DNA of 11,936 nt from NCBI GenBank assembly GCA_018396935.1, contig JAGTRA010000019.1, forward strand, positions 1-11,936, given 5' to 3'. The translations under genes and the position numbers were made by a program. The notes below the pieces were generated by a model. The model made no database searches and was not told the DNA's origin. It was given only the letters and a program-made list of their open reading frames with translations. Shown in pieces: positions 5,913 through 11,936 of the stretch. Origin of the DNA: Candidatus Bathyarchaeota archaeon. Its GTDB lineage: Archaea > Thermoproteota > Bathyarchaeia > Bathyarchaeales > Bathycorpusculaceae. Position 1 is the stretch's first letter. The number at the start of each line of letters is the position of its first letter.

Positions 5913-6688
5913 TGGGCAAGAAGGGTGGCTCTCAGGCTTTAAAGCGTAAACCAGCTCCGAGAATTTGGCCGATTCATAGGAAGGAATTCACATGGACTGT
6001 TAGGCCTACGCCAGGTCCCCATTCTATGGAGCGTTGTATACCCCTAGTTATAATGTTACGTGAAATTTTAGGCTTTGCAAAGACAAGGAAAGAAGCTAAG
6101 ATAATAGTTGCTCAGGGTAAGGTTTACGTTGATGGGAGAGTTAGACGTGATGATCGTTTCCCTGTAGGTTTAATGGATGTTGTTTCAATACCTGATATGG
6201 ATAAAACTTTCAGGGTCCTACCCCATAAAAAGGGGTTAACCTTATTCCCAATAAGTAAGGATGAAGCTGACTTTAAGCTCTGCAGAATAGAGAATAAAAC
6301 GACGGTGAAGGGCGGGCATATACAACTTAACCTTCATGATGGATCAAATATTCTCATTAAAGTAGCTGATGCAAAGAATCCCCAGGAAGACGTCTATAAA
6401 ACCTTTGATACCCTAAAAGTAAGCCTCCCTGAAAGAAAAATTTTAAGTCATATACCCATGAGAGAAGGAGTTTACGCAATAATTACCGGTGGAAAAAACC
6501 AAGGAGTTTGCGGGAGAGGAGTTGAAAGAGAGAAAGCTGAGGGTAAGCGGCGCAAGGACCTCCTTGTAACTATAGAAGATGATGCTGGAAATCGTTACCA
6601 AACGATATTAGACTTCGTCTTCGCGATAGGCGAATCTCAACCACTAATATCATTGCCAAAAGCTACGGAGGTAATGCAAAGTGTCTGA
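5912..6688 (+). CDS. rps4e: Small-subunit ribosomal protein eS4 (S4e)
   Basis: eS4 is a 30S protein found in archaea and eukaryotes but not bacteria. The 258-residue chain opens [20 protein letters not shown] with KEFTWTVRPTPGPHS, has the S4-like RNA-binding domain at about residues 42-95 (REILGFAKTRKEAK, VYVDGRVRRD, FPVGLMDVV), the S4e central domain, and a C-terminal KOW region around residues 185-205 (GVYAIITGGKNQGVCGRG) ending near FVFAIG. The length is slightly above the common archaeal size. It begins on the last base of the uL24 stop and overlaps uL5 by 8 bases, so the three are probably coupled in translation. Confidence 0.98.
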   Translation: MGKKGGSQALKRKPAPRIWPIHRKEFTWTVRPTPGPHSMERCIPLVIMLREILGFAKTRKEAKIIVAQGKVYVDGRVRRDDRFPVGLMDVVSIPDMDKTFRVLPHKKGLTLFPISKDEADFKLCRIENKTTVKGGHIQLNLHDGSNILIKVADAKNPQEDVYKTFDTLKVSLPERKILSHIPMREGVYAIITGGKNQGVCGRGVEREKAEGKRRKDLLVTIEDDAGNRYQTILDFVFAIGESQPLISLPKATEVMQSV

Positions 6689-10562: not shown

Positions 10563-11051
10563 TTGTCTGAGTTTATGGAAAAGCGAAAGTGTATTGCAGC
10601 GATTAAAATCCGTGGAACTATACGGGCGCCGCTAGAGGTAAGGGAAACCCTCAGAATGCTTAATCTAAAACGAACAAACTACGCCATTCTAATCGATGAT
10701 AGACCATCTTTCATCGGAATGCTTAGAACAGCCCAGAACTATGTAACCTGGGGGGAGATCTCAAAGGATACAATCGCCCTCCTGATTGAGAAGCGTGGGC
10801 GTCTTGCTGGAAATAAAGAGATAACCGAAGAATACCTGCAGGAAATAGGATACAAATCAATTGATGAACTGGCTGAAGATATATTCAATTGCAAAGTTGA
10901 GTACTGGAAACTTCCTGGGATTCAACCCTACTTCAGGCTACATCCACCTACCAAGGGCTTCAGAGGTAAAATAAAGAAGAGCTATTCTATGGGTGGAGAA
11001 CTTGGATATCGAGGAGAAACCATTAACGAGCTTATACGGCGAATGATTTAA
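10563..11051 (+). CDS. rpmD: Large-subunit ribosomal protein uL30 (L30)
   Basis: The 162-residue product is the long archaeal/eukaryotic form of L30 (related to eukaryotic L7), not the 60-residue bacterial form. The core IAAIKIRGTIRAPLEVRETL with LNLKRTNYAILIDD and MLRTAQNYVTWGEI is diagnostic; the C-terminal part has FRLHPPTKGFRGKIKKSYSMGGELGYRG. The TTG at 10563 directly follows the uS5 stop, and GGTGAGGT just upstream is a good Shine-Dalgarno site at short spacing. An in-frame ATG at 10575 is possible but lies 14 bases from that site. In most archaea uL15 comes next; here a spacer and an Hsp20-like gene intervene. Confidence 0.97.
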   Translation: MSEFMEKRKCIAAIKIRGTIRAPLEVRETLRMLNLKRTNYAILIDDRPSFIGMLRTAQNYVTWGEISKDTIALLIEKRGRLAGNKEITEEYLQEIGYKSIDELAEDIFNCKVEYWKLPGIQPYFRLHPPTKGFRGKIKKSYSMGGELGYRGETINELIRRMI

Positions 11052-11065
11052 AATCATACGCTTTG

Positions 11066-11080
11066 GCGATACCTTTTATA
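11066..11080 (+). promoter_or_regulatory. possible internal promoter before the Hsp20-like gene
   Basis: The 62-base gap after uL30 is the longest one inside the array. It contains GCGATACCTTTTATA, with TTTTATA (11074-11080) as a TATA candidate. A start about 26 bases beyond its centre would be near 11103, just before GTGGGGA (11107-11113) and the ATG at 11120. The box is only a moderate match and the upstream BRE is weak, so transcription may simply continue from uL30. Confidence 0.35.
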
Positions 11081-11119
11081 GTCAGTTTAGGAATGCCATT
11101 GTGTTAGTGGGGAATGTCC

Positions 11120-11545
11120 ATGGGGCGAAAAAAGAAGCTTAAGCGTCACGGTTGGCCAAAGAAAAACAAAAGATTCAATGGGGACACATTTAGGATGAAA
11201 TATGTTAAAATTGGGGGTTCCCAACCACATAAATACGGCGTCTTAAAAACCTTCACTAAAAAAATGATGAAGGAACCTGCTCCATTAATAGACGTGTTTC
11301 AAAATGGGGATTATATAACAGTAGTTGCTGAGCTTAAAGGTTTTCGACGTGAGAATATAAAGGTAGAAGTTGAGGGTCAACGTTTAACATTGTCTGCTAA
11401 AGCTTCTAACCGTAAATTCTATAAGGTTTTAAGTCTTCCAAACAAAGTGTTGCCTGAAAGTCTTCGCACAAACTACAAGAATGGTGTACTTGAGATACGC
11501 TTAAAAAAAGCTTTAGTGCAAAAAATAAACAAAGTGGCTGGTTAA
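11120..11545 (+). CDS. small Hsp20/alpha-crystallin-like protein with basic N-terminus
   Basis: With the ATG at 11120 the product has 141 residues. Residues 55-130 read as an alpha-crystallin/Hsp20 domain: PLIDVFQNGDYITVVAELKGF, RRENIKVEVEGQRLTLSA, then RKFYKVLSLPNKVLPESL and the signature YKNGVLEIRLKK. The loop between LTLSA and KFYKV is very short, and no I-x-I motif follows the domain, so large oligomers of the classic type are not expected. Residues 1-50 are strongly basic (17 Lys/Arg, one acidic residue) and look like a ribosomal protein extension. It lies between uL30 and uL15, with uL15 starting one base after its stop. GTGGGGA is 6 bases before the ATG at 11120; ATG at 11114 is too close. 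A chaperone or RNA-bound role in ribosome assembly is inference only; a CS/p23-type fold is the alternative. Confidence 0.8.
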   Translation: MGRKKKLKRHGWPKKNKRFNGDTFRMKYVKIGGSQPHKYGVLKTFTKKMMKEPAPLIDVFQNGDYITVVAELKGFRRENIKVEVEGQRLTLSAKASNRKFYKVLSLPNKVLPESLRTNYKNGVLEIRLKKALVQKINKVAG

Positions 11546-11546
11546 A

Positions 11547-11936
11547 ATGCCTCATAGGCTCAGGAAGATTAGGAAGAAGCGTGGTACTCGTACAGTTGGC
11601 TATGGCCGCGTAGGTCAGCATAGAAAAACAGGCTCTAAGGGCGAGCGGAGAGCAGGGCGACATAAGCATGGTTGGACCTACGTACTTAGATATGAACCAG
11701 ATTACTTTGGCAAGAGAGGCTTTACTTCACCTGCAAGTTTAAGGCGCATTGAAAATATTATAAATGTTGGGGAACTTGAAGAAATGGCGGAAAAAATAGG
11801 CGCTACTGAAAAAGATGGCAAGATATTCCTTGACCTAACGAGCCTAGGATATACAAAGCTATTGGGAAGAGGAAGAGTTAAAAAAGCCTTCATAATAAAA
11901 GTTCCATCGACTTCGGAGGCTGCTGCTGAGAAAATA
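11547..11936 (+). CDS. rplO: Large-subunit ribosomal protein uL15 (L15), partial at 3' end
   Basis: The first 130 codons are present and the gene runs off the window end. uL15 is a late-assembling 50S protein. The archaeal N-terminus is clear: MPHRLRKIRKKRGTRTVGYG with GRVGQHRKTGSKGERRAG and RHKHGWTYVLRYEPDYFGKRGF, then INVGELEEMAEKIG and LTSLGYTKLLGRGRV of the C-terminal L15 domain. The ATG comes one base after the Hsp20-like stop (TAAAATG), so the two genes are probably coupled. In archaea secY usually follows uL15, but that lies outside the window. Confidence 0.97.
   Translation, partial: MPHRLRKIRKKRGTRTVGYGRVGQHRKTGSKGERRAGRHKHGWTYVLRYEPDYFGKRGFTSPASLRRIENIINVGELEEMAEKIGATEKDGKIFLDLTSLGYTKLLGRGRVKKAFIIKVPSTSEAAAEKI

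Follow-up and report, generated by a model that had tools for sequence, protein, structure and literature searches.

What is a gene for an Hsp20-like protein doing between two ribosomal protein genes of the spc operon, the gene order of which is very stable? The question is raised by an 11,936-nt stretch of DNA from a Candidatus Bathyarchaeota archaeon (contig JAGTRA010000019.1 of assembly GCA_018396935.1; hereafter the window), the last genes of which, all on the plus strand, are uS5, uL30, the Hsp20-like open reading frame (ORF) and the first 130 codons of uL15 (Table 1). An original prediction, made from the sequence alone, had noted a gene for a protein with an alpha-crystallin domain between uL30 and uL15, in the same orientation as both, with uL15 starting one base after its stop; both points are borne out by the gene coordinates (stop at 11545, start at 11547) and by the match to the HSP20 family of Pfam. 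The interval then assigned to the gene, 11052..11546, does contain it, but opens at the base after the uL30 stop, and its first 62 bases (11052-11113) are a non-coding leader before the ORF starts at 11114.

Table 1. Features at the uL30-uL15 junction of the window.
Feature	Position	Strand	Evidence
uL30 gene (TTG start), upstream neighbour	10563..11051	+	NCBIfam uL30_arch, 174.3 bits (cut-off 150.05)
Conserved BRE/TATA-like box GCGATACCTTTTATA, putative promoter of an hsp20-uL15-secY unit	11066..11080	+	Conservation of the box; promoter activity inferred
Hsp20-like (alpha-crystallin) ORF, spc-linked, 143 aa	11114..11545	+	Pfam PF00011, 39.5 bits (cut-off 20.8)
Single-base spacer from Hsp20 stop to uL15 start	11546..11546	+	Sequence
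uL15 gene, truncated by the contig end	11547..11936	+	Pfam PF00828 (Ribosomal_L27A), 40.7 bits

Strand, tight spacing and conservation across relatives all assign the gene to the spc operon. Relatives of its product at 92% and 85% identity mark it as genuine, and the named relatives are mostly labelled Bathyarchaeia or Bathyarchaeota. The genome itself (G000; 1.08 Mb, approximately 75% complete) carries one further Hsp20 copy on a different contig. A structured RNA close to the gene was also considered, but a search of window positions 10900-11936 against Rfam gave no match. Directly ahead of the ribosomal genes, at 296-2756, are ORFs that, judged by their translations, resemble the hydrogenase maturation genes hypC and hypD (plus strand) and hypE (minus strand).

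Membership of the Hsp20 superfamily is supported by the Pfam match, by structure prediction and by comparison with solved structures. The prediction, which had been proposed as a check, returned a confident alpha-crystallin sandwich (strands at residues 59-132; 73 residues with pLDDT of at least 90), preceded by a basic N-terminal arm (about residues 1-52) of low model confidence that is probably disordered. By sequence, the protein matches archaeal small heat shock proteins of solved structure, the best being 4rzk (E 6.6e-18). The alpha-crystallin domain of Sulfolobus Hsp20.1 (4rzk) is also the closest fold (Foldseek E 6.1e-9, TM 0.86 by target, 47% identity over 81 columns).

How widely the arrangement occurs was examined in 151 genomes of the same order, in which f1 denotes the window's family and f2 to f9 the other families. 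uL15 was found in 74 of the 79 f1 genomes, and an Hsp20 gene lies no more than 100 nt upstream of it in 73 of these 74; in the remaining genome (G148) Hsp20 and uL15 are both located at contig ends. A further Hsp20 match, at least one, is present in 70 of the 74 f1 genomes with a slot copy, and none of the 25 other f1 copies among the matches listed comes closer than 3 kb to either ribosomal gene, uL15 or uL30. In f1 the gene is thus found neither at random positions nor in a single genome, the two outcomes that would have counted against the original prediction. An assembly artefact was considered and rejected, since the arrangement agrees in many genomes and the sole exception has contig ends.

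The position of uL30 is less regular. In the 73 adjacent f1 cases it lies within 700 nt in 34, at 700-1000 nt or not found in seven, on the same contig but more than 1 kb distant or separated in some other way in 21, and on another contig, possibly through assembly, in 11. Many of the 21 distant cases fall in two genera and hence do not represent 21 independent events. The lasting neighbour of Hsp20 in f1 is uL15, not uL30, and a link to uL30 in that role was rejected for this family on the strength of those same-contig cases. The check proposed with the original prediction, whether the gene always sits between uL30 and uL15, is borne out in f1 for its uL15 side (73/74) but not for its uL30 side.

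In the rest of the order, Hsp20 was found beside uL15 in 3/3 genomes of f2, 1/2 of f4 and 14/22 of f6 (genomes with uL15 found), and in none of the 34 such genomes of f3, f5, f7, f8 and f9. Presence or absence in f4 and f6 was settled by reading the sequence, and absence in f7 and f9 rests on uL30-uL15 gaps of 15-78 nt; one of the eight f6 genomes without an adjacent Hsp20 offers just 458 nt of sequence. In another f6 genome (G048; locus L202), approximately 1.3 kb containing an ORF on the opposite strand separates uL30 from an Hsp20 gene downstream, and uL15 is on another contig. Three loci of the order (L203, L207 and L220) hold a third Hsp20 type with a long, coiled-coil-like N-terminal part (approximately 250 aa).

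Beyond the order, Hsp20 precedes uL15 in four of 38 loci read from the same class (f12, f15, f21 and f23), and also in one more family, f10. In f16, the ORF before uL15 at L100, L102 and L105 is, by eye, a 167-aa uL13-like frame that overlaps uL15 by approximately 10 nt. Reading of 31 loci from other classes of the phylum showed uL15 after uL30 in 23, and Hsp20 stands between the two in 2/23 (f33 and f50); the f33 genome is publicly listed as Bathyarchaeota archaeon B24, so that names and our group codes differ. A set of 99 genomes centred on a Baldrarchaeota genome, taken as the Asgard phylum, gave a uL30 match in 94, and 70 loci were read: of the 63 decidable ones, 15 have Hsp20 interposed between uL30 and uL15 and 48 have the two genes adjacent without it, and seven more were left undecided. 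The Baldrarchaeota genome at the centre of the set has no Hsp20 between the two genes. Because the surveys of the phylum and of Asgard were anchored on uL30, they miss Hsp20-uL15 pairs located away from it, such as that of a Nezhaarchaeota genome in which the uL30 locus shows no uL15. Among the best 80 named relatives of a six-copy alignment of linked proteins, 24 lie next to a ribosomal gene, one of them in a Nezhaarchaeota record, and some of these 24 loci belong to genomes already counted in the surveys.

A soil lineage departs from this pattern, in that Hsp20 follows uL30 and no uL15 was seen downstream as far as the contigs reach. A strict uL15 rule was rejected for this reason, and any rule containing the word 'always' fails both here and in the sister families without the gene beside uL15. 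At one locus (L255), a second, partial uL30 match (5917-6150, 55.9 bits) lies approximately 3 kb downstream of an intact uL30-Hsp20 pair. At another (L198, f52; 1161-2804), Hsp20 follows uL30 by approximately 640 nt and is succeeded by a frame that by eye is a CDC48-like ATPase; this copy probably belongs to an unrelated Hsp20 operon.

Part of this distribution is already in print. A study of Asgard genomes describes the addition of an HSP20 gene to the S10-spc cluster in four Thorarchaeotes and an Odinarchaeote and, in the passages available, sets Asgard genomes beside non-Asgard ones and suggests horizontal transfer (PMC10833476). No further paper on the arrangement stood out in a literature search of titles and abstract openings, from which subscription journals mostly fell outside, and the string 'ribosom' had no match in a review of archaeal small heat shock proteins.

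The Hsp20 proteins encoded in the uL30-uL15 slot, which is occupied in several lineages of archaea, form a distinct group. On a tree of linked and generic copies, the two labels required six changes as against approximately 39 when shuffled (11 duplicate loci dropped), and on a second tree five as against 45.9 (six divergent rows dropped). The linked copies of several families also have their own N-terminal pattern in common. One locus, L249, was treated as generic in both trees and in the charge and box counts given below, as linked in the constraint tests, and was excluded from the 78-protein tail set. The constraint tests, both run without the six divergent rows, gave a tree better than that of the free search when all 62 linked rows were held together (+6.19, p 0.597), and one still better with the Asgard copies placed among the generic ones (+11.28, p 0.662). 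On a uL15 tree, which is weakly supported and built on few columns, presence of the linked gene took 15 changes, with L102 mislabelled as linked. The uL15 of Asgard loci with the gene mostly falls near that of Asgard loci without it, and transfer of the whole segment is thus not favoured. To judge from these trees, the linked copies may have a single origin or may stem from repeated insertion.

Within f1, substitution rates also mark the gene as genuine. In five genome pairs, dN for Hsp20 (0.01-0.05) was lower than dS (0.14-0.47), and in four of those pairs uL30 gave dN of 0.02-0.06 and dS of 0.14-0.44; in the pairs computed, dN/dS of the Hsp20 gene resembles that of uL30. A recent insertion was rejected, as 73/74 f1 genomes keep the arrangement and dN is below dS. 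The earlier argument that the tight join speaks against a recent random event is therefore upheld, and the join reflects long selection. That the gene is a neutral insertion retained by chance is very improbable: the patchy distribution outside f1 and the many presence changes on the uL15 tree count in its favour, but low dN, a conserved box and retention through rearrangements count against it.

The box, the loss of a C-terminal motif and a basic charge are features that the original prediction had not foreseen. The box before the gene has the consensus GCGATA-NN-TTTTATA and was found, at no more than three mismatches of 16, in 72/73 f1, 3/3 f2 and 9/14 f6 loci. None of 85 upstream regions labelled generic, of which L249 is truly linked (its uL30 lies just beyond the distance cut), has it at that threshold; the best of the 85 has five mismatches, and shuffled means are about six. 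Four genomes were scanned for the exact box, and each has it a single time, before the slot hsp20; matches with one mismatch elsewhere in these genomes number five, versus eight for a reversed-pattern control. A longer form of the box was matched exactly at 53 of 309 loci, all of them f1 or f6 slot loci. The box was not seen in linked loci of f4, f10, f12, f21, f23, f33 and f50, and a further 12 linked loci from named genomes yielded a match within four mismatches in the Nezhaarchaeota case alone. A role as a general heat-shock promoter was also considered; the five mismatches of the best generic upstream region and the single exact occurrence per genome in the four scanned leave it unsupported.

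A G-rich, Shine-Dalgarno-like stretch follows the box in at least half of the aligned f1 and f2 loci. The gap between the Hsp20 stop and the uL15 start has a median of 2 nt in the 73 f1 loci (range -73 to 30), and in 23 of them uL15 starts inside the Hsp20 frame at -11; from this distribution, the two frames often overlap. SecY lies downstream of uL15 in the two loci tested by Pfam (L147 and L135), followed in L135 by an EMC3/TMCO1-like gene; in the other aligned loci, inspection by eye showed SecY in the majority, though not in every one. From its conservation we infer that the box is a promoter, and hsp20 is likely to be co-transcribed with uL15, because the box precedes hsp20 and the median gap is so short.

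The protein encoded in f1 is also unusual. The window protein has a pI of 10.6, and f1 slot proteins a median pI of 10.3 and net charge of +20 (66 of 74 used, the eight of 120 aa or less having mis-picked starts), versus medians of 5.8 and -2 for 79 generic copies. In groups other than f1 and f2 the slot copies have near-neutral medians, and by this measure the basic character is confined to these two families. The C-terminal I-x-I/V motif of small heat shock proteins serves oligomer assembly, and the window protein lacks it. After the last strand, an I-x-I-like tail was found in one of 74 f1 proteins (not that of the window) versus 75 of 78 generic ones, in 3/3 f2, 14/14 f6 and 19/20 other linked copies outside Asgard, and in 2/15 Asgard linked copies. 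The 13 remaining Asgard copies stop right after the last strand; f1 copies retain a tail of approximately 12 residues without the motif. An alternative rule based on the last eight residues gave 3/66 f1 versus 77/79 generic (strict I-x-I, 1 versus 45), but would include the last strand itself in Asgard copies, and so one rule was applied to the part after that strand. Since slot copies outside f1 and Asgard are nearly all tailed and those outside f1 and f2 near neutral, the basic tail-less form is derived and is not implied by the slot alone. Tail loss could also reflect a constraint on the DNA, as the end of the Hsp20 gene overlaps the uL15 start region.

We tentatively favour the reading that the f1 Hsp20 is a holdase which does not oligomerize and is dedicated to newly made ribosomal proteins or to 50S assembly, and not an ordinary stress chaperone. 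If the box acts as a promoter, hsp20, uL15 and SecY would form a unit able to run apart from the upstream operon, and transcription from the box with coupled translation would provide Hsp20 immediately ahead of uL15 and at a matching pace. Presumably no longer able to form the usual large oligomers or cage, the protein would work as a monomer or dimer, its basic arm might bind RNA or the ribosome, and it would shield new ribosomal proteins, uL15 first and then its neighbours, and help 50S assembly; general stress protection would fall to the remaining Hsp20 copies of the genome. In favour of such a holdase are the adjacency to uL15, which persists where uL30 has moved, the conserved box and short gap, the lost tail, the high pI, the separate clustering of linked copies and a dN/dS resembling the value for uL30. 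Against it are the tailed, near-neutral slot copies of other lineages, the many linked loci in which the box is not seen, the soil lineage that keeps uL30 without uL15, the f6 genomes (8/22) and sister families without a slot copy, and SecY, which is nearly as close as uL15.

The chief alternative, possible but on the unlikely side, is that the protein has general housekeeping duties as a small heat shock protein, draws on the strong ribosomal operon only for constitutive, growth-linked expression and has no ribosomal client. Slot copies outside f1, f2 and Asgard resemble ordinary archaeal Hsp20 proteins with an I-x-I-like tail, and that of f21 passes the NCBIfam equivalog NF041800 for archaeal Hsp20 (201.6 bits, cut-off 140). 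The additional Hsp20 matches of most f1 genomes mean that the slot copy could be the constitutive one. However, the f1 copy has its own conserved promoter-like box, fails the same equivalog cut-off (95.8 bits in the window), and has lost the tail and changed its charge. This rival is thus disfavoured in f1, and may hold for other lineages.

A lineage-specific protein in which the alpha-crystallin domain has turned into a ribosome-associated or structural component is improbable. It would fit the high median pI, the low-confidence basic arm, the ribosomal operon, the near-universal presence in f1 and the substitution rate like that of uL30 in the pairs computed, but the basic character does not extend beyond f1 and f2 by medians, and sister families lack the gene beside uL15. 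A further reading, that f1 has domesticated an alpha-crystallin chaperone, encoded together with uL15 in a coupled unit, as a stoichiometric component bound to the ribosome, either an assembly factor or a ribosomal protein, we regard as unlikely; if true, domesticated chaperones of this fold would be a new source of ribosomal components. Similarly improbable is a holdase on the translocon side that would assist SecY and the EMC3-like insertase with membrane proteins. The genes downstream of uL15 in the Pfam-tested loci agree with it, but the tightest join is to uL15, and in archaea SecY usually follows uL15 whether or not Hsp20 is present, which disfavours this explanation.

As the spc gene order is stable and a chaperone gene recurs in one slot in several lineages of two archaeal phyla, the arrangement points to a link of protein folding with ribosome building. 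Dedicated ribosomal-protein chaperones are known from yeast, such as those of the Acl4, Sqt1 and Rrb1 type, with folds unrelated to Hsp20. The likeness lies in the proposed mode alone, the guarding of one new ribosomal protein. Whether dedicated chaperones of ribosomal proteins exist in archaea is a question that can be put to the basic tail-less form as a specific protein, and the conserved box offers a handle on the timing of slot Hsp20 production. With Sulfolobus Hsp20.1 (4rzk) and NF041800 the window protein shares the alpha-crystallin fold; it differs in scoring below the equivalog cut-off, in lacking the I-x-I tail, in its basic arm and in being encoded in a ribosomal operon with a promoter-like box of its own. 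The HSP20 of the Asgard S10-spc cluster is the nearest precedent, a gene of the same family in the same ribosomal cluster; the exact position, a promoter, the tail loss and Bathyarchaeia do not figure in the available passages of that study (PMC10833476). The fold and the Asgard precedent were thus already known; what is new is the breadth of the arrangement, the promoter-like box and a variant of the protein that is basic and tail-less.
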